Shown here in pieces: positions 4,521-22,870 of a stretch of DNA of 27,608 nt. The stretch is from a virus: positions 1 through 27,608 of IMG/VR virus record IMGVR_UViG_3300041809_001880. One strand, written 5' to 3'. The number at the start of each line of letters is the position of its first letter. The stretch's first letter is position 1. The position numbers and the translations under genes are program-made. The notes under the pieces are model-generated. The model made no database searches. It was not told the origin of the DNA and saw only the letters and a list, made by a program, of their open reading frames with translations.

Positions 4521-5612
4521 TTACGAAATCACCTTCCGGAATCGGATCGTCTGGTTCAGCTTGTTCATACCGGGATATTTGTGCGCAACGCGATTGCCCT
4601 TAGACATCAGGTGGCAGGTGGTGTAGCTGGACGAGGCCAGGTCAGGGTAGTAATCAAAGTGGCCACCCGTCGCGGCATACTCCAGAAAAGCTTCCCAGTT
4701 GGCGGTATCGGCGCCCAACGTGATCAGGGGCATGTCAAACTCAATAAAATGGTCAATGCGCTCCAGAACCGTCTGGTCGTCACCGTAGCTGCTATAGTCG
4801 GTTTCACCCTTTTCGTCAGGAATGTACGGGTCCTGGTTGCGGGCGGGATAGACAAACGGAAGAACGGAGGGTGGAGTTCCCACGCTCGGCGGCCCTCCCG
4901 CCCAGGGATGACCAGAAGGAAGGAGCGCCTGTGATCCCCACTTCCAGGCGAGGTAGCCCTCGTTATTCTGCAGGTTGGCGGTGGAAAGCTGAGAGGGATA
5001 TAGGATCGCTTCGCCTAACAAGCCGTTGTATGTTGCCCCCGCGCTCTGATTTCCACCCAGGATAATGCCAGTGGTGCTGGATGATCCGGCATTGCCGGTG
5101 AACTGATTCCCATTCAGCCTCAATAGGCTGGATACGCCGTTCGAAACTGCGCCATATACATTGAGAGCGGCAGGCGACGAGAGCGTGCCGGTGCAGCCAT
5201 AGTTTCCCTGGAACCAATAAACCGTTGGCGATGGGTTCACCATCAGCATGTTGCTGCCCACCCCGCTGGAGTAGTCGCCGACGATATAGTCGAAGCCGCC
5301 GCCGCCAGTGCTGCGCGTGGCCACCACAAACAGGGTTGCGGGATTCGAAAGGGAAAGCCCGGCAGTATTCAGCCACAGCATCCCGGTCCGATTGAACTGC
5401 ACGGCGGGAAGGCCGCTGAACTGATTTGTCCGGTAGAGCGGTGAAGTGCCCGTCGCGGCCAGGTTGAACCCGTTACCACTGATGTCCGGCCATGCAGCCA
5501 CACTGCCGCCGCCCGCAATGCCGGTCAAAGCGCTGGCGTCATAGCGCGCCGCCATACCGGAAGGCGTCCACAATGTCTGGCTAGGGTAAACGATTTTTTG
5601 GAGATAAGACAT
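4521..5612 (-). CDS. LamG-like (concanavalin-type) receptor-binding tail protein
   Basis: The 363-residue protein begins with a LamG/concanavalin-like lectin domain (about 20-235): ARYDAS, then AWPDISGNGFNL, then LPAVQFN, a TLFVVATRS strand and the closing EAILYPSQLSTANLQNNEGY, a pattern common in sugar-binding tail and surface proteins. Residues 270-363 form a different domain (TVLERIDHFIEFDMPLI, then RFRKVI) that probably anchors it to the tail tip. It lies between the tail-tip and fibre genes, the expected place for adhesion proteins. The ribosome site is weak (GAG eight bases before the ATG). LamG assignment is confident; the anchor role is inferred. Confidence 0.75.
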   Translation of the reverse strand: MSYLQKIVYPSQTLWTPSGMAARYDASALTGIAGGGSVAAWPDISGNGFNLAATGTSPLYRTNQFSGLPAVQFNRTGMLWLNTAGLSLSNPATLFVVATRSTGGGGFDYIVGDYSSGVGSNMLMVNPSPTVYWFQGNYGCTGTLSSPAALNVYGAVSNGVSSLLRLNGNQFTGNAGSSSTTGIILGGNQSAGATYNGLLGEAILYPSQLSTANLQNNEGYLAWKWGSQALLPSGHPWAGGPPSVGTPPSVLPFVYPARNQDPYIPDEKGETDYSSYGDDQTVLERIDHFIEFDMPLITLGADTANWEAFLEYAATGGHFDYYPDLASSSYTTCHLMSKGNRVAHKYPGMNKLNQTIRFRKVIS

Positions 5613-5618
5613 TTTCAG

Positions 5619-5690
5619 CTCACAGATTACAGGTCACAGGTTATAGGGGCTGGGGGCAGTTCTGTCACCTGTCCCCTGTCACCTGAAACC
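5619..5690. repeat. Inverted heptad array (ACAGGTC / TCACCTG)
   Basis: ACAGATT, ACAGGTC and ACAGGTT on the left arm face TCACCTG, TCCCCTG and TCACCTG on the right arm, with a G-rich centre (5647-5659). It fills the whole gap between the tail-tip and LamG genes. Confidence 0.75.
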
Positions 5691-7028
5691 TCAATACACC
5701 AATTGCCCTTCGTCCACGAAGCCATACTCCGCTTGCTGCGCGGCCGATGCGCTTGCCCACGCGGGCGTGCCGTCCGGAGCGATCACCAGCGGCGTGGTAT
5801 TCATCCAGTTCACGTCGAGCAACTCGTACGCGAACTCACCCTTGGACCAGTCCGGGGTTTTTCCGGTTACCTCAAACCAGTGGTTCACCAGGCCCATGCC
5901 GCCGCCCTTGGCCGGGATGTAGGGATGGGTCACTGCCACGCGATCGCCAATTTCAGGCGCCATGCAGTTCCATGGGCAACGAACCGTCAACACCCAGGGC
6001 TTCATCCCGTAGCGCCGGAACATAGCCTGCTGCGCCAGCATGGCGAAAAGCACGCCGCCATCAGCGCTCTTGAGTCCTCTCGACTGCTTGGTGGTGAGGT
6101 CCTGCAGGCCATACGCGGTCTCGGCCGGGCCGTAGGCATTACCAACACTCGTAGGGTAGTTCTGGCCGTCGTAATCCATCATCGTCAGCAGGCTGGCCAC
6201 GAACGGCCCCTGATCGAGCGTGGGGATCGGCGAAAGGATGTTGCGAGTGTTCAGCACAAACGGAGCGGCCGGCGCGCCCAATGGCAGCGGATAGTAGGGC
6301 GTGTACTGGCCGGCGTAATTCCAGAAGCCATACCCGGCCAGTGGGGAAAAGATTTCCTGCCGCAAAAATGCCAGCGCCTGCGGCGATTGCGTCAACGAAA
6401 ACCGCATCGTCAATGGGGCGAAAAGGTTGTTTTGATAGTTAGCAATGGCAGTAGTGTTGATGCTGCCTGCCGGCAACCCTAGCTGGTTTTGCAGCACATC
6501 GAGCAGGATGGCCATGGGACTGCCTTCCAGCGTGTATGGGTTATCGCTCGACGTCTGCCAGCCATCGTCGCCCAGCAGGTAAACCAAATTTTGCATCTTT
6601 AGGCCGGGATCGCGAAAGTTGAGGGTGTATCGCAGGTTCGATTTGTCGGTCTTGAAACCATCGATGACGTAGGTCCCGAAAGGCGCAAAATCCGCCAGCG
6701 CAAGGCCCGGGAAGCCGGTGGTCACAGTGGCCGTCAGACCTTCCAGTGTGTGGGATTCCAACAGGTTGGTGATGGCCAGGTTCTTGTCGAGAACGCCCAC
6801 GCTGAGCGCGTTATTCGAACCATTGCCGCTCAGAATGTCGCCCTTGGTTCCTCCGCCGCTCATATCGTTAATCCAATGATTCACGCAAGTGGCGGGCGCG
6901 GTGGGATCGTAAACCTCCTTTGAGACCTGAATCAGCGTCGAGCCATCGGGATTTTGGATGGTAACCAGGTGGCGGGGCTTCAGAGCGCCAGCGGCCGCGT
7001 TTTGCCAGTTAGTGGTTAAAGGGACCAT
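5691..7028 (-). CDS. Tail-tip / hub structural protein (probable)
   Basis: A 445-residue protein without a signal peptide, rich in beta structure. The C-terminal part (IGDRVAVTHPYIP, WFEVTGKTPDW, FAYELLDVNW) resembles the hub domain pattern of siphophage tail-tip proteins; the N-terminal half (LVTIQNPDG, LEGLTATVTTGFPG) also fits a tail-tip fold. It lies between the tape measure/sigma pair and the receptor-binding genes, the normal position for a distal tail or hub protein. The ATG at 7028 is chosen because residues upstream are repeat-derived; it overlaps the end of the sigma-like gene by 13 bases, so translation is probably coupled. The specific homologue is not identified. Confidence 0.6.
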   Translation of the reverse strand: MVPLTTNWQNAAAGALKPRHLVTIQNPDGSTLIQVSKEVYDPTAPATCVNHWINDMSGGGTKGDILSGNGSNNALSVGVLDKNLAITNLLESHTLEGLTATVTTGFPGLALADFAPFGTYVIDGFKTDKSNLRYTLNFRDPGLKMQNLVYLLGDDGWQTSSDNPYTLEGSPMAILLDVLQNQLGLPAGSINTTAIANYQNNLFAPLTMRFSLTQSPQALAFLRQEIFSPLAGYGFWNYAGQYTPYYPLPLGAPAAPFVLNTRNILSPIPTLDQGPFVASLLTMMDYDGQNYPTSVGNAYGPAETAYGLQDLTTKQSRGLKSADGGVLFAMLAQQAMFRRYGMKPWVLTVRCPWNCMAPEIGDRVAVTHPYIPAKGGGMGLVNHWFEVTGKTPDWSKGEFAYELLDVNWMNTTPLVIAPDGTPAWASASAAQQAEYGFVDEGQLVY

Positions 7029-7615
7029 TGAGCGACCGGGGTACGGGATTCGGGATACGGAATTCGGGACTCGGGAAAAGCCGCGCACCGCATCTTTGCC
7101 AAGGCGCGCTTCCGGATGCGTTTTATCGACGTGGGATAAAGGGCCAGATCCTTTGCTAGTTGCGAATCAAGCAGCTCTTGAAGCATTCCTCTTATCACCA
7201 GTTGCTCCAAACGCCCCAGGATACAAAGAAGGAAATCGATCGACAATTCCGCCACCAGGCGATCTTCCGGGTTGGCGCTGGGATGCATCTCTTCAGTGAT
7301 TTCCGTATACTCAATCCGGTCGGTGTAGCCGGAGTGGCTGGCATTGACGCACGCGCCGTTCATCTCCCAGTAAATTGCCTTGGTGTAGTAGCTCAAACAG
7401 GTAATGCTTTTCCCGCTGTCAGAGCTTTCCACTGCCTTGATGAGGCCCAGCACACCGATTTGGAAAAGGTCGTTACGGTCCATGCCGTAGAGGGGGCGCC
7501 CGGAGTGGAAGAAGCGGTTGGCAATCTTGTGGACCAGGGGCAACCAGCGCACCACTTCAGCGTTGCGAAGCTCTTCCCGCGTCCCGAGTCCCGTATCCCG
7601 CGTCCCGACGCTCAT
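7016..7615 (-). CDS. Sigma-70-like RNA polymerase sigma factor inside the tail operon
   Basis: The 199-residue protein shows sigma region 2 at about 21-90: WLPLVHKIANRFF, then MDRNDLFQIGVLGLIKAVE (region 2.2 core-binding signature), then SYYTKAIYWEMNGA, matching the aromatic region 2.3/2.4 helix in weaker form. Residues about 118-176 look like a shortened region 4 ending in IKRIRKRALAKMR, the usual recognition-helix end. Regions 1 and 3 are missing or very short, as in small alternative sigmas. The ATG at 7615 overlaps the tape measure stop (ATGA), so the gene is translationally coupled. Its first about 15 and last about 20 residues (TRDTGLGTRE; PESRIPYPESRTP) come from heptad repeats. It may direct late or very late transcription, but could be an inactive relative. 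Family call is good; role is inferred. Confidence 0.75.
   Translation of the reverse strand: MSVGTRDTGLGTREELRNAEVVRWLPLVHKIANRFFHSGRPLYGMDRNDLFQIGVLGLIKAVESSDSGKSITCLSYYTKAIYWEMNGACVNASHSGYTDRIEYTEITEEMHPSANPEDRLVAELSIDFLLCILGRLEQLVIRGMLQELLDSQLAKDLALYPTSIKRIRKRALAKMRCAAFPESRIPYPESRTPVAQWSL
7037..7079. repeat. Heptad array (GGGATTC type) at the 3' end of the sigma-like gene
   Basis: GGGATTC, GGGATAC, GGAATTC and GGGACTC follow in 7-base steps on the plus strand. In the minus-strand gene they encode the PESRIPYPESRTP tail. The array is inverted relative to the one at 7577-7610. Confidence 0.75.
7577..7610. repeat. Heptad array (CCCGAGT type) at the 5' end of the sigma-like gene
   Basis: CCCGCGT, CCCGAGT, CCCGTAT and CCCGCGT on the plus strand encode the TRDTGLGTRE start of the sigma-like protein. 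Confidence 0.75.
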
Positions 7616-9297
7616 CCGAGTTTTTCCCCGCTATACCAGGAGTTTGAGGAGGTCAACACTCCCTGGCCGTTTTTGGCAAGCGTGCTCATCTGAGCCATCA
7701 GTTGAACAACGCTGTCCTGGGTCCACCCCGGGCCCTCCAGGTGAAGATGGATTTCGTTGCCTGACCCAGGCATTCCCGCGCCGCCGCCAGATCCGCCGCC
7801 AGGAGTGGCGGCGCCACTACCGGACCCACCGCCATAGCGCGAATTATTGCCTCCACCACCACCTGAACCACCGCCATAATCGCCATGGCTACCGCCGCTG
7901 CTACCCGCGACTGCAAACATCTGCTCAGCCGCCAATCCATATTTCACGGCGGCAAGTCCCGCCGCCACATCAGTTCCCCAGCTCCCTATAAACTGTGCGG
8001 CAAATTCAATCGCCTTTGCCGCATCGTACGCGCCCTCCACGGCGGCCACAGCCTTTCTCCCGCCGATAATTCCAGCCGCCGTCGTCGCGATGCTTTCGAG
8101 TTCGGCGCTCATGTTGTCAGCAATCGCCTCTTTTTCCCGCTCTAAAGCCTCCGACCAGCTTCCCGATATTCGGGTGGCGTCCTGGGTGATGGCAATCAAC
8201 GTCTTACGCGCATCGCTAAGGTGCTTGGTGGCCGTAGCTTCTACCTCAATCTGAGGCCCAAGCTGCGATTGACGCCCAACCGTTTCCAAGCGCGAGAACT
8301 GGCCGTTCAGCTCGATGAGGAGATTAACCTCGTCCAACTCCAACTTGTTGAGGAACTGCTGCTGCTTTGCCGCTTCGGCAAGTGACGCCGCTTCTTTCGC
8401 CAGTTGCTGTCCTGCCTCAGCCCGCGCCTTGGCCTGCCACTCATGTACTTGCTTCTGAGCCTCCCATTTTTTGTGAATGGCTTCCAACCTCTCAGCGTGC
8501 GCAGTCTTTGCATCCTGTGCAGCCTTTCTCGCTGCCGCCTGGATTTCATCGTCATACGCATAGTTCAGTCTTTGCTGCGCAAGCTCTTCTTTCGCCCGAT
8601 TCGTACGATCGATAAAGTACTGATCCTCTGCGGCGACGTTGACGCGTTCGATTTTCCCACGCTCGATGGCATAATCGTTCTGCTGTTTGATTAGGGCCGC
8701 GCCGGAGAGGTGAACTTCTTTAAGTTTCTCTTCCGCGTCCAGCATCCCCAGGATGATCTTGTGTTGATTTTCTATGCCTTTCTGCTCATCCTGCGCCTTC
8801 TTCGATGTCTCCGAGGTGAAATCCCCCAGCAGCCCAAGCCAGTGAAGCGTATCTGCTTCCGCCTGCGAGATCGGGCCGACGATCTCAGTGACTTTATCCT
8901 TGAATTTGTCCCAATTTTCCACAGCCTCCGCAATCTCGCGCATTGCAAACAGCGTTAACCCGGCTTCGGCTGCTATACGAAAAGCTCCCTCCAGCATCTT
9001 AATGTGGCTAATGGCGCCAACCACGGCGCGGGGCAAGTGGATTCCTAATTCCTGTGCCAGCAAATGTATTGACTGATGGGAGTTCATCAGGCTTTTTTCT
9101 GCCTGTTCCCCAAACTCTTCGAATTTCTGGCCAGATTCCTTTAAAGGAGGGTCGATCTTGTCAGGGAGCAAATCAAATTTATTCCCTAAGTTGTTGACCG
9201 ACTTCCCAAACTGCTGCTCAAACTCATCCATCGTCGTAACTGCAGAGGATGGGTCAGCGGATATCGTGAAAAGGAGTCCTAAAACAGAATCACCCAC
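7612..9297 (-). CDS. Tape measure protein
   Basis: The 561-residue protein has long charged helices (about 160-345: EEKLKEVHLS, KARAEAGQQLAKEAASLAEAAKQQQ), then a small-residue hydrophobic stretch (about 395-465) with the AA-rich C-terminal pattern of tape measures, a Gly-rich segment (about 465-520) and a short folded end (EIHLHLEGPGW). It follows the tail chaperone genes and precedes the tail-tip gene, as in siphophages. At roughly 0.15 nm per residue it would set a tail of about 80 nm. This is short for a tape measure but normal for small siphophages. The stop overlaps the start of the sigma-like gene. Confidence 0.85.
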   Translation of the reverse strand: MGDSVLGLLFTISADPSSAVTTMDEFEQQFGKSVNNLGNKFDLLPDKIDPPLKESGQKFEEFGEQAEKSLMNSHQSIHLLAQELGIHLPRAVVGAISHIKMLEGAFRIAAEAGLTLFAMREIAEAVENWDKFKDKVTEIVGPISQAEADTLHWLGLLGDFTSETSKKAQDEQKGIENQHKIILGMLDAEEKLKEVHLSGAALIKQQNDYAIERGKIERVNVAAEDQYFIDRTNRAKEELAQQRLNYAYDDEIQAAARKAAQDAKTAHAERLEAIHKKWEAQKQVHEWQAKARAEAGQQLAKEAASLAEAAKQQQFLNKLELDEVNLLIELNGQFSRLETVGRQSQLGPQIEVEATATKHLSDARKTLIAITQDATRISGSWSEALEREKEAIADNMSAELESIATTAAGIIGGRKAVAAVEGAYDAAKAIEFAAQFIGSWGTDVAAGLAAVKYGLAAEQMFAVAGSSGGSHGDYGGGSGGGGGNNSRYGGGSGSGAATPGGGSGGGAGMPGSGNEIHLHLEGPGWTQDSVVQLMAQMSTLAKNGQGVLTSSNSWYSGEKLG

Positions 9298-9572: not shown

Positions 9573-9785
9573 TCACCATTGGATCACGTTTTCTTCACCC
9601 TCAACCGCTCGGTCCAGGCTACGGCCGCGAGCTTCTGCCGCCGCTCGGTCAATCCGAAATGCTGCCATTCCCCGCAGCTCCAGTAGTGCACTTGGCCTGC
9701 AGTGGCTCTCGCTCGCTATCCACGCCAGCCCGTTCAGCAACTCCTGATCCTCCAGGAAAAGGCTTGAGATCGTCCACGGCGCCAT
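9573..9785 (-). CDS. Second tail-assembly protein (lambda T-like position), overlapping frame
   Basis: This 70-residue frame starts at an ATG at 9785 and reads FLEDQELLNGLAWIASESHCRPSALLEL, a composition I recognise in small phage proteins between tail chaperone and tape measure (GLA-x-IA-x-E-x-HCRPS). It overlaps the end of the first chaperone gene in another frame. It may be made as a separate protein, or as an extension of the first protein by a frameshift at the G6 run at 9806-9811. If fused, the product would be about 208 residues. No strong ribosome site precedes the ATG, which slightly favours the frameshift. Confidence 0.6.
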   Translation of the reverse strand: MAPWTISSLFLEDQELLNGLAWIASESHCRPSALLELRGMAAFRIDRAAAEARGRSLDRAVEGEENVIQW

Positions 9786-10197
9786 CAGGCCGCGAAACAA
9801 TCTCACCCCCCAACCAACGGAAGATAAATGCCAGATCGGGTAGAAGGATATCGCGCAGCCCAATTTCACCAGGCCGCGACCCATAAGACGGGCGAACAAA
9901 GATGGCGCTGAAGACGCGGTCCAGGAAATCCTGATAAGCCATAGATGCGTCGAACTTTCTCTCCGCGGGCGCGAGGGTTTCGTTTTGATTCTTTTCCTCT
10001 TTAAAGGCACTCCACACCTGATCATGGAGGCGCAAAAATGTTTGCGCTCCGACAGGGCCTGGGTGCCGCAGGCTCACTATGAGCCCTTTAGATGGAAGAG
10101 GAATTGTTTCTGGCTTGCCTTGCCGCATCTCGTCTTCCAATGCCTCGCGCATGGCGCGCATAAAATCTTCCGCCGTGGCGAAGACTCTCTCGCTCAT
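9649..10197 (-). CDS. Tail-assembly chaperone (lambda G-like position)
   Basis: A 182-residue acidic, mostly helical protein (MSERVFATAEDFMRAMREAL, then LRDILLPDLAFIFRWLGGE). The ATG at 10197 has GGAGG four bases upstream. It lies between the tail tube and tape measure genes, where the chaperone is expected. After residue about 131 the sequence becomes Gly/Pro/Arg-rich, a common tail in this family. The alternative frame from that point carries the second protein. It probably coats the tape measure during tail assembly. Confidence 0.7.
   Translation of the reverse strand: MSERVFATAEDFMRAMREALEDEMRQGKPETIPLPSKGLIVSLRHPGPVGAQTFLRLHDQVWSAFKEEKNQNETLAPAERKFDASMAYQDFLDRVFSAIFVRPSYGSRPGEIGLRDILLPDLAFIFRWLGGEIVSRPDGAVDDLKPFPGGSGVAERAGVDSEREPLQAKCTTGAAGNGSISD
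9805..9813 (-). promoter_or_regulatory. Candidate programmed frameshift site in the tail chaperone
   Basis: The minus strand reads TTG GGG GGT GAG, a run of six Gs in the Leu-Gly-Gly codons. A -2 (or +1) slip here moves ribosomes into the overlapping frame that ends at 9573. Frameshifting at this gene position is known in many tailed phages, with -2 reported for Mu. Confidence 0.5.
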
Positions 10198-10317
10198 AGG
10201 GCCTCCAGAATTGGCTTGACAATTGGTTTTTGTTGATTGAAAGTGGACAGGTAAGACGGGGCCACCCGGTGGTTGCACACCGAATGACCCCTAACCCACA
10301 AAGTGGAGGTACCCACG
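10198..10317. promoter_or_regulatory. Divergent regulatory gap between chaperone and plus-strand unit
   Basis: TTGACA at 10216-10221 is a perfect -35 match on the plus strand, but the -10 at 17 bases (GAAAGT) is poor. CCACC-C-GGTGG at 10262-10272 is an exact 11-base palindrome and could be an operator. Minus-strand transcription of the tail genes may also have to restart here, because the plus-strand unit separates them from the tail tube. Confidence 0.35.
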
Positions 10318-12007: not shown

Positions 12008-12074
12008 CGGGATACGGGATTCGGGACACGGGACACGGGCCTTTCCCCGTATTCCGTCTACCGTCTACCGCCTA
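12008..12074. repeat. Two-armed heptad array with different arms
   Basis: GGGATAC, GGGATTC, GGGACAC and GGGACAC on the left face GTATTCC, GTCTACC, GTCTACC and GCCTAC on the right. The left and right unit sequences are of two different repeat types, joined at GGGCCTTTCCCC. The array reaches the stop codon of the next small gene. Confidence 0.75.
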
Positions 12075-12233
12075 CTTCTCCTGCTGAATTTCAAACGCCC
12101 AGGGACTGGCCTTGGCGGTTTCCTCGTCAAGCTCGATGGTTTGGCCAGGCTCGAACCGCGCCGGCTCTTCCGCCGTGTGCTCTTTTCCCGCCAAATGGAC
12201 ATGCGCCTTAACGCGAACTTTTACGATTGCCAT
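12072..12233 (-). CDS. Small 53-residue phage protein
   Basis: The ATG at 12233 has GGAGG eight bases upstream. The protein reads MAIVKVRVKAHVHLAGKEH and continues with FEPGQTIELDEETA, a small beta-rich fold of the type found in many phage head and tail operons near connector or tail tube genes. It lies between the tail terminator and tail tube genes. The exact function is unknown. Confidence 0.7.
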   Translation of the reverse strand: MAIVKVRVKAHVHLAGKEHTAEEPARFEPGQTIELDEETAKASPWAFEIQQEK

Positions 12234-12823: not shown

Positions 12824-12833
12824 GATTAGGTTT

Positions 12834-12913
12834 TAGGTGACAGGGAACAGGGAACAGTAAGGGCGCGCGAACCGCGGCTTTTCTGTAACCTGTAACCTGT
12901 CACCTGTTCCCTC
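12834..12913. repeat. Inverted heptad array (AGGTGAC / CTGTAAC)
   Basis: Left arm is AGGTGAC, AGGGAAC and AGGGAAC; right arm is CTGTAAC, CTGTAAC, CTGTCAC and CTGTTCC. A GC-rich centre (12861-12878) separates the arms. Confidence 0.75.
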
Positions 12914-12917
12914 TCTT

Positions 12918-14829: not shown

Positions 14830-14884
14830 GTAGCACAGCCACTCATGGCTGTGTTGGATCACAGGCAAGAGTGCCTGTGCTACC
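14830..14884. repeat. REP-like palindromic element, copy A
   Basis: The 55-base unit starts GTAGCACAGCCACTC and ends GTGCTACC. It is a nested palindrome: CACAGCC pairs with GGCTGTG, CACAGGC with GCCTGTG, and the outer GTAGCAC with GTGCTAC. A close second copy is at 16283-16338. Confidence 0.8.
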
Positions 14885-14886
14885 GC

Positions 14887-15228
14887 CTACTTCTTCTTCG
14901 CCGCCTTCGTCTTCGCGGCCTTCCACTGCTCGAATTCCTCTTTCTCTGCCGCTTCGGCATCGGCGATTGCCTTGGCCTCAGCCGCTTCTTCCGCTACCCG
15001 CTTGTCGCGGATACGCCAGTACGCTTCAGGGCGCCCTTTGACCATCGGGATCTGGCCGCCCGTCATCTCCAGGGCTTCATCATCGGTTAGCTCGATCGTG
15101 CCCGACGCGTCCACAGGAATCGGCTTGCCGTGGCTCATGCTCAAGACTGTTTTGGGGCCTTTGTGCCCCTTGGGAACGTAGTGAACGCAGTTCTTCTCGA
15201 TAGGTTTCAAAACTTGGTATTGCGCCAT
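14887..15228 (-). CDS. Small protein with charged helical Lys-rich tail
   Basis: A 113-residue protein. Residues 1-75 are a compact fold (YQVLKPIEKNCVHYVPKGH, IPVDASGTIELTDDEALEM) and 80-113 a highly charged Ala/Glu/Lys helix ending KTKAAKKK. The ATG at 15228 has GAGGAG eight bases upstream. It directly follows the major capsid gene and is probably head-associated, but the function is not known. Confidence 0.6.
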   Translation of the reverse strand: MAQYQVLKPIEKNCVHYVPKGHKGPKTVLSMSHGKPIPVDASGTIELTDDEALEMTGGQIPMVKGRPEAYWRIRDKRVAEEAAEAKAIADAEAAEKEEFEQWKAAKTKAAKKK

Positions 15229-16282: not shown

Positions 16283-16338
16283 GGTAGCACAGCCACTCCT
16301 GGCTGTGTCCAATCACAGGCAATAGTGCCCGTGCTACC
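16283..16338. repeat. REP-like palindromic element, copy B
   Basis: GGTAGCACAGCCACTC at the start and GTGCTACC at the end, with the same nested palindrome as 14830-14884. The two copies differ at about six of 55 bases, which is close enough for recent common descent. Confidence 0.8.
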
Positions 16339-16420
16339 AGCAACTTCTAACGCTCAATGGCGATGGGGCCTGGACGCTCCAACATCGCCAAATCCGCCCA
16401 AAGGCTAGCGTCATAAAAGA

Positions 16421-16988: not shown

Positions 16989-17002
16989 TTAAAACCTCCA
17001 AT

Positions 17003-17066
17003 CGGGGGTTAGGGGCTAGGGGCTAGGGGCTAGGGCTAATCCCCGACCCCAAACCCCGAATCCCGG
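17003..17066. repeat. Inverted heptad array (GGGGCTA / CCCCGAC)
   Basis: GGGGCTA repeats three times almost perfectly after GGGGTTA and is followed by TAATCCC, CGACCCC and AAACCCC-type units facing the other way. Near-perfect copies suggest recent slippage. Confidence 0.8.
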
Positions 17067-20239: not shown

Positions 20240-20274
20240 ATGACCCGATGGTCCGATGAACCGATGGCCCGATT
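20240..20274. repeat. 8-base-period repeat (CCGATG type)
   Basis: TGACCCGA, TGGTCCGA, TGAACCGA and TGGCCCGA repeat in steps of eight, not seven, in the gap before the portal stop. It reaches the stop codon. Confidence 0.65.
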
Positions 20275-22870
20275 AATTCACCGGCTCCACGCTGGGCTGA
20301 CACAAGCAGAGATTTCCGCCCTGGCAGATTACCGAGAGGTCCTGACCCGGCTCGATCTCCGTGCCATCCGCCTTGATGCACGGGTCGCAGCTTCGCGGCT
20401 CCATGGCGCAGATTCGCACCTGGTGGAAGCCTTGAGCCTCCAGCGCTTCGCGAATCTGGTAGAAGGCCTCGCTCCGCGCCACGCGCGTAATGCCCCTTGC
20501 CGCCTCGCCCGCGAAGTTATCCATGTAGCCATCGGACAGGCCTTGCAGCGTGTTTTCAACCGCTGTCTCATCCAGCGTTTCATCAGGGCTGGAAGCTGAA
20601 ATCATCCGCGCGGATTTGCCGATCTGATTGATGACTTTCTGAACCGTCATCTCCGCCCACAAACCAGCGCGCTCGGTAAGAACAGGAAGGTCGGCAGATA
20701 GGCAGATTGGCAGGTCAGAGCGTTCGGCCATCTGCCTGCTGCCCACCTGCCGAGCTGCCACAGCACGTTTCGCTTCTTCCACGGCCAACGCGTGCTGTGC
20801 GCGATACGCCGCCGCCAGGATGGGTGTCAACTTGTCATCCAGTGCCTGGTTATGCCCAAACGTCATGGCACTGGAATCTGTCTTGGTGCGATGTTGCTGG
20901 ACGGTGGAAGCGGCAATAGGCTTGATAACCGCTGTTTTCGAGGCTCGAAGAACCCGCGCAATTTCGTTTTGCGTGTGGTCCATCGCCCGTTGGATCTCGG
21001 GGAAATCGATGTGCGTCTCGTGCGCATGGACCTTGCGTAAATGCTCTGGATGTCCCTCGTGCCAGAACGGCGAGTCGGTGTCGCGAAAGCGACCCAGTGA
21101 CAAGTGACGAGTGACGAGTGACGAGTCAGAAAGATGAATTGCATCCGCCCTTTGCGCGCTTTGAGTCTGTGGTTTGCCGCCTACTGCCGACTGCCTACTG
21201 CCTACTGCCGACTCCCCGCTGCCTACTGCCGCCTGCCCACTGCCGCCTACCCCTGGCACTGAGGCCGTCGCTTTGCCTGGCAAAATCGTTTCCCCGCTCT
21301 TCAGGTCTTCGTGCGAGAGCGCCTGGAATCCCAGTTCACCGCGCAACTGATTCAGTGAGCCTTCATCGGAGATCCACGCGCCCGCCGTAGAGAGTTGACT
21401 AATCGCTTTCACGATGTCATCAAGACCGCGCGCTTGAACGTTTGAGGCTTTCAGCATGGGTACCGGTGCGCCCACGCCGAAATTCATCTCGATAAGCGGC
21501 TTCAGAACTTGGTTGCGAATGCAGTTGGCGACGAAGTCAGCGGAAAGCTGCAAGGCCAGCATGAAGAAATCGGTTTGCCCCTCCATCAGCGCGCGATTGC
21601 CGCCCGAGCCGCCGCTCTTTTGGCCGCCGCCCTGCTGCATAAACATGGCGAGCAGCGAGCGCGCCATCTGCATATCCTCATACTCGATGGTGGGCAGGAT
21701 CTCTCGCGGCGTGCCCTCCACGGCGAGAATCTTCAGCTCCGCGCCATTCGGCAAACTCAGGCCGGTCTTCTCATGAATCGCAAGCTGGGTAACGAAATTC
21801 TGCGCGGTCTGCTTATCCTCGGCGCTGGCGTTGGGAGGCAGGATGATGACCGGAACCCCCATGCCGTTCCGTTCGCAGGCAATGGCATTCAGCCGGCGCA
21901 GAATGGCCTTCACGAATTTATGGGGATACATCGGGCGCGTATCGGGGAAACCCCAGAAGTTCGCCCCCTCCTGATTCGCCGTCACGCGCAGGATTTTGTC
22001 GGCAGGCAATGTGGGCGTAATGAACTGACCGCCGCGCCAGCCATACTGTTGAAGCGCGTAAAGAGTTTCGCCATCATCATATTTGCCCTGCGGCAAACTG
22101 TTGTCCAGGATCCACGGGTCGGTGTGCCATCGGTAGAACGTTAGCGCCTGGCGGTCCGCGAGGCGAGCCACCATCAAGCGCGAACCCTCCACGCGATAGA
22201 CGATCTCGGCAATCGAGCAGCCAAAAGTGTAGGCGCGAAGGCAATTCCGCAGCACGTCATCGAAAGTCTGGCTGACTGTTGCGCCATGGACGGTGCGGAA
22301 TTCCAGGCCGCCGAAAAGATTCTCCCGGCAAAAGTCGGTGCTCTCCTGGCGCTTGTTGGCGGTGTTCCGGCCGGCGCCGTTACTGCCGACTTTCCCCGTC
22401 CCCTGCTCTTCGGGAGGCGGCGCCACTTCCCAGCGCGCTGACTCAATCGGCCAAGTACGCGCGTTGAGTAGGCCTCGCACCTGGCCGTCGCCCCGCCGCA
22501 TCTTCTCGTAGACGCGCACTGCCTGCAGGCCGCGAATCTGCGGGTCATACTCACCCAGGTCGGTGATAAATCCGGAGGGAATGGCGGTGCCGGAAGCGCC
22601 AAACAGAATCGTGTAGCCCTGCGCAACCTTGGCCTGAATCTCGCCAATGGTGGCACGCGGAATGCTGGGAGGAAGAGGCACAGGGGCTGGAAAACCGGGG
22701 GCTAGGGACTGGGGATTAGGGGTTGGGGAACCGGCACCCGACACCTGATACCCTAGCTCCGTATCCGCCAGCGTAACCGCACGATCGGTGCGAGCCTGAA
22801 GCGTGTTGCGCTCGGCGTGAATCACCCGCGCTTCCCGAATCTTTTTCGAATTGGAGCCTTTAGCCTTCAC
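20273..22870 (-). CDS. Portal fused to MuF-type minor head protein
   Basis: An 865-residue protein that combines two Mu-like genes. Residues about 100-540 are a Mu gp29-like portal ([72 protein letters not shown]). Residues about 600-865 are MuF-like: FRDTDSPFW, then [17 protein letters not shown] and [13 protein letters not shown], ending GGNLCLC. The joint and its surroundings (about 540-600 and 705-730) are heptad-coded linkers ([39 protein letters not shown]). The GTG at 22870 has only a repeat-like AGGGTGA upstream. It forms the DNA entry ring of the head, with MuF inside. Confidence 0.85.
20691..20754. repeat. Two-armed heptad array in the MuF part
   Basis: GGCAGAT, AGGCAGATT and GGCAGGT on the left face ATCTGCC, TGCTGCC and CACCTGCC on the right. 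Read in frame it encodes the linker with [14 protein letters not shown]. Confidence 0.75.
21096..21252. repeat. Heptad arrays in the portal-MuF linker
   Basis: AGTGACA, AGTGACG, AGTGACG and AGTGACG (21096-21127) and CTGCCTA/CTGCCGA units (21178-21252) lie in frame inside the fusion joint and encode SLVTRHLSL and [18 protein letters not shown]. Confidence 0.8.
22694..22756. repeat. Heptad array (GGGGCTA type) in the portal N-terminus
   Basis: GGGGCTA, GGGACTG, GGGATTA and GGGGTTG followed by CACCCGACACCTGATACCC. It encodes the Pro-rich [17 protein letters not shown] linker near residues 47-63. Confidence 0.7.

Follow-up and report, generated by a model that had tools for sequence, protein, structure and literature searches.

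The sigma-70-like gene and its place in the tail operon

The window analyzed here, a 27,608-base IMG/VR record, carries a gene for a sigma-70 family factor on its minus strand, in the order tape measure, sigma factor, hub-like protein, LamG/gpM-like protein, and fibre. The features of the locus are as follows.

7016..7615, minus strand: sigma-70 family factor gene, 199 aa (HMM, AlphaFold2 model, Foldseek, coding frame)
7612..9297, minus strand: tape measure gene, 561 aa (synteny with the tape measure genes of relatives)
5691..7028, minus strand: next tail gene, hub-like (homology to the large protein of relatives)
7570..7609: heptamer array, five imperfect copies (minus-strand unit NNCGGGA), encoding codons 1 to ~13 of the sigma gene
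7032..7078: second heptamer array of this family, in the opposite orientation to 7570..7609, supplying most of the final ~20 codons of the sigma gene

The sigma reading frame extends from an ATG at 7615-7613 to a TAA at 7018-7016, and its start codon shares 4 nt (ATGA) with the TGA of the tape measure gene (7614-7612); the overlap claimed in the initial annotation for this 199-residue gene can thus be read directly. From the ATGA overlap we infer that translation of the sigma factor is coupled to termination on the tape measure gene. The 3' end overlaps the next tail gene by 13 nt, counted from its likely ATG (7028), which is preferred over the listed GTG (7088) because the latter falls inside the sigma gene and ahead of the repeat sequence. 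Among the possible frames, only that of the sigma gene matches the codon usage of the phage's coding genes and, together with the profile matches and the structural model, this rules out a chance open reading frame at 7016-7615.

The tape measure gene itself matches no PHROG. Relatives have counterparts of differing length (253, about 290, 652, and 959 residues), and those of 652 and 959 residues match PHROG tape measure families (2.6e-8 and up to 4e-29); the window protein shares an N-terminal stretch with the 652-residue counterpart (E 0.003). By synteny, the assignment of 7612..9297 as the tape measure gene holds. The hub-like gene at 5691..7028 matches a large hub-like protein over the latter's C-terminal part; in relatives, this protein follows the tape measure gene and a gpM-like gene. 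On the 5' side of the tape measure gene, two overlapping minus-strand frames at 9573-10278 recur in relatives (L122 13802-14405; L123 7865-8552; L128 8597-9227), as would be expected of tail assembly chaperones produced as a pair through programmed frameshifting.

Assignment to the sigma-70 family

The NCBIfam profile TIGR02937 (sigma70-ECF) aligns to residues 19-176 of the sigma protein with an E-value of 1.2e-12 and 47.8 bits, above its curated cut-off of 42.9 bits, and phrog_351 covers residues 13-176 (E 1.3e-15). Pfam Sigma70_r2 matches residues 23-76 (E 4.1e-6), and Pfam Sigma70_r4 gives no match in the protein, although the TIGR02937 alignment does run to residue 176. The initial annotation had recognized a region 2.2-like stretch, DLFQIGVLGLIKAVE (residues 49-63), and a region 4-like stretch, IKRIRKRALAKMR (residues 164-176), and had proposed profile searches for both regions. 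The two stretches are borne out by TIGR02937, phrog_351, the Pfam region 2 profile, and a predicted sigma4 helix-turn-helix; the searches themselves were significant for region 2, in Pfam and in TIGR02937, and negative for the Pfam region 4 profile. With homology far beyond chance, the predicted product of 7016-7615 is a sigma-70 family protein, with a polymerase-binding and -10 domain (region 2) as well as a -35 domain (region 4).

The top single relatives of solved structure are WhiG, SigK, and FliA (E 2e-4 to 6e-3). Alignment with proteins of the SigF/SigG/SigK type displays a retained region 2.1-2.2 block and the absence of region 3, and the core-binding stretch D49-L-x-Q52-x-G54-x-x-G57-L-x-K60-A61 is retained as in SigF-type factors; by profile comparison, region 2 resembles the SigB/SigF/SigG type. 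In both alignment and model, the protein has the layout of ECF (group IV) factors, i.e., sigma2, linker, and sigma4 without regions 1.1 and 3. We make no claim of membership in ECF proper, since the adjoining genes are tail genes and no cognate anti-sigma gene is found next door.

Predicted structure

Five distant relatives went into the AlphaFold2 model, which has a mean pLDDT of 65 and comprises sigma2 helices (residues 10-94), a disordered linker (95-125), and a sigma4 domain (126-179), with both termini disordered. Block averages are about 70-91 over residues 11-90 and about 66-80 over residues 141-170, and the three sigma4 helices (126-132, 135-157, and 161-179) lie at a pLDDT of about 58-80; thus, sigma2 is modeled confidently and sigma4 moderately confidently. 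The helix-turn-helix of sigma4 is retained with a basic recognition helix. In Foldseek, the best PDB matches listed are sigma factors or polymerase complexes containing sigma, and sigma factors lead among the named viral matches. The sigma2 domain superimposes on the N-terminal domain of SigE (8b3z) with a TMt of 0.85 and an rmsd of 2.1; full-length TM-scores are low because a flexible linker joins the two domains.

Heptamer arrays

Both ends of the sigma gene are formed by arrays of an imperfect 7-base family, CGGGA(T/C)N, and the inverted pair 7050-7076 / 7582-7608 is 85% identical. These arrays explain the odd ends of the predicted sigma protein. The window contains 25 period-7 arrays (for example 5613-5697, 12825-12916, 16999-17066, and 21172-21253), compared with 0 or 1 in randomized sequence and 0-3 for other periods, and 72% are centered within 60 bases of a gene end, versus 20% expected. 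The heptamer sequence varies from array to array, and pairs are often inverted. Period-7 arrays are also present in close relatives (L122/G002, L123, L124, and L132), where, as in the window, they occupy most gene junctions; distant relatives have few or none. Similar G-rich heptamer repeats, mostly intergenic, have been reported from the chromosomes of Xanthomonas and Nostoc (PMC4692102).

The arrays may serve as recombination borders; however, their presence on both sides of the sigma gene is no proof of its route of arrival, since they occur everywhere in the phage. A small gene at 12072-12233, which also lies between inverted arrays, was considered as a comparable gain and rejected, since L123 has a homologue in place. 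Arrays are tolerated within coding sequence, as the portal/head-morphogenesis gene at 20273-22870 is read through those at 21090-21134 and 21172-21253, which encode a repetitive linker.

In a search for a two-box promoter motif shared among the 150-base stretches 5' of the window genes, only the heptamer arrays exceeded the shuffled controls, one genome giving this search low power. No independent promoter was recognized for the sigma gene.

Distribution among related phages

One near-identical contig (99.986% over 21.6 kb, with 3 mismatches and 0 gaps) carries an identical, intact sigma gene. Relatives were gathered with a two-member MCP profile, and six of them cover the position after the tape measure gene (L122/G002, L123/L211, L126, L127, L128, and L132). 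In all six, this position is occupied by a gpM-like tail gene whose homologue in the window is the C-terminal part of 4521-5612; where the contig extends far enough, the hub-like protein comes next. The comparison of this position in related phages, which the initial annotation had recommended, therefore places a sigma factor after the tape measure gene in 0/6 relatives by the profiles phrog_351 and TIGR02937.

Beyond this position, a convincing sigma gene (phrog_351 and TIGR02937) is found in one of the 50 MCP-related contigs, G075, in which the reading of open frames places it in the replication region, close to the contig end and following a gene for a DnaB-like helicase. The other 49, many of them fragments, contain no sigma gene above the curated cut-off, and their remaining TIGR02937 matches are short region 4-like stretches below it. 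Among 50 TerL-related contigs, phrog_351 matches the near-identical contig and, weakly and partially, two others. No close sequence relatives of the sigma protein were found in IMG/VR apart from the near-identical contig; phage records and plasmids yield weak region 2 matches only, and genome contigs a single weak one, to a FliA-like factor of Mangrovibacter.

The sigma gene so appears to be an accessory gene gained by one lineage rather than a conserved part of a late switch, and an accessory role is favored because the gene is not conserved. Its absence from this position in six relatives speaks against an essential switch for late genes or lysis: sigma switches of late genes, of the Xpf or gp55 type, would be conserved with their late module, and this gene is not. 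An essential part in the late module of the lineage is ruled out, as relatives carry the gpM-like gene after the tape measure gene. Separately, L123 has tandem major tail protein-like copies (5918-6931 and 7001-7807), both about 65% identical to the single copy of the window.

Comparison with known phage sigma factors

Sigma genes are common in phages, usually among the early genes. The Xpf gene lies upstream of the late operon activated by its product, whereas the window sigma gene lies inside the tail operon. Xpf is the positive control factor of the PBSX defective prophage of Bacillus subtilis, a group IV protein of about 20 kDa comprising sigma2 and sigma4 (PMC10141391). Likened by its description, this prophage-encoded factor has the same layout as the window protein, i.e., sigma2 and sigma4 only.

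T4 gp55 is likewise a small phage sigma factor of late transcription; it has no proper region 4 and depends on gp33 and the sliding clamp, whereas the window protein has a sigma4 domain. Furthermore, gp55 is required for late genes, its essentiality being quoted in a passage of PMC9429907, while the window gene is absent from relatives.

In the Prochlorococcus siphovirus P-SS2, ORF003 encodes a group 3 sigma factor of 214 residues directly after terS-terL on the same strand, within the packaging/structural region (PMC2784084). However, ORF003 adjoins the terminase rather than the tape measure gene and belongs to a different phage lineage, and P-SS2 carries a second sigma factor, ORF113. The sporulation-like sigma factors of Bacillus phages (SP10 g120; SigF-like members of phrog_351) resemble the window protein in their SigF/SigB-type region 2 and accessory nature. 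They differ in that the aligned SigF-type relatives retain region 3 and that the one gene with its surroundings read lies outside the tail genes.

Of two annotated phages, Emery has its sigma gene close to replication genes and 278BB001 among small function-unassigned genes. The view that a tail-operon position is out of the ordinary agrees with such placements, either close to replication genes or, outside the structural region, among small genes, and we found no described phage that uses a tail-operon sigma gene in exactly this way. Short sigma2-sigma4 prophage factors and sigma genes in a late or packaging region are already known; the unusual element is the position in the tail operon.

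Proposed mechanism and alternative explanations

The best reading of the locus is an Xpf-like sigma2-sigma4 factor that would appear only after the tail operon has been switched on. We propose, with a probability of about 0.6, that it is a working phage sigma factor, produced from the late operon and coupled to the tape measure gene, which redirects a share of host polymerase to cognate promoters. The gene would have been acquired as an accessory, placed between the tape measure and hub-like genes, and its product would appear only upon transcription of the late tail operon, through translation coupled to tape measure termination. The protein is predicted to bind the host core RNA polymerase via region 2.2, and some polymerase would be diverted late in infection to putative promoters of its own. 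We infer core binding and late timing from the retained motifs and the gene position, and late-stage redirection of host polymerase is plausible; with no promoter motif shared by phage genes, lysis or plus-strand genes as its targets are guesswork. A factor that is itself a product of the late operon cannot be responsible for the initial activation of that operon; the roles left are those of a late amplifier, the opening of a last gene set, or host reprogramming. As no neighboring anti-sigma gene is seen, timing would rest on the operon.

Host reprogramming leads to a rather unlikely alternative, in which the factor is an accessory of the moron type that targets host genes, with phage transcription independent of it. 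Its absence at this position from relatives with the same late module and the lack of a visible phage promoter motif are compatible with such a role, and Bacillus phage sigma factors are reported to be non-essential and to alter dormancy (PMC9429907). However, expression from a late operon near lysis leaves little time for reprogramming a host, and no promoter of its own was recognized. It is improbable that the gene is a functionless, decaying passenger recently brought in between heptamer arrays: it is seen in this phage only, repeat arrays form both of its ends, and the overlaps could arise from chance insertion, but the frame is full-length, follows phage codon usage, keeps conserved motifs in both domains, and contains no frameshift in either contig.

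A short protein without regions 1.1 and 3, abundant if coupled to a structural gene, might also bind core polymerase, displace the host sigma factor, and shut down host transcription; the retained sigma4 helix-turn-helix with its basic recognition helix, unneeded for sequestering, makes this very improbable. The five imperfect 7-base units that stand inside the reading frame directly after the start codon raise a very slight chance of a phase-variable switch, in which gain or loss of one unit would shift the frame and turn the factor off, and the inverted flanking arrays could flip the cassette; the phage population would then be mixed, with and without the late sigma program. Packaging of the factor through tape measure coupling, with injection and immediate action in the next cell, is barely credible. 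The sole point in its favor is the position beside a structural gene; translational coupling does not cause packaging, no targeting feature is seen in the sequence, and virion proteomics of P-SS2 yielded 0 peptides of its group 3 sigma factor from the structural region (PMC2784084). Thus, of the initial interpretation, a sigma factor with regions 2 and 4 lying in a tail operon stands, while its suggestion that the protein may ride in the virion finds no support.

If the proposed working sigma factor is indeed a by-product of tail gene translation, it would provide a simple clock, appearing no earlier than the expression of structural genes. Should it have its own promoters, a single accessory gene would add a step of transcription beyond the usual late stage. 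The locus also gives a small, testable sigma factor for an uncultured phage group.

Other elements of the window

A 65-base element occurs in two copies (86%) at 14830-14894 and 16284-16348, with two internal hairpins (GCCACTC... and CACAGGCA...); by exact pattern in IMG/VR it is found in the near-identical contig only. At 281-1353 on the minus strand, a gene for an adenine methyltransferase of the D12 class (the first half of the Pfam profile matches at 3e-10) appears broken by frame changes, with its C-terminal part seemingly in another frame at 281-472.
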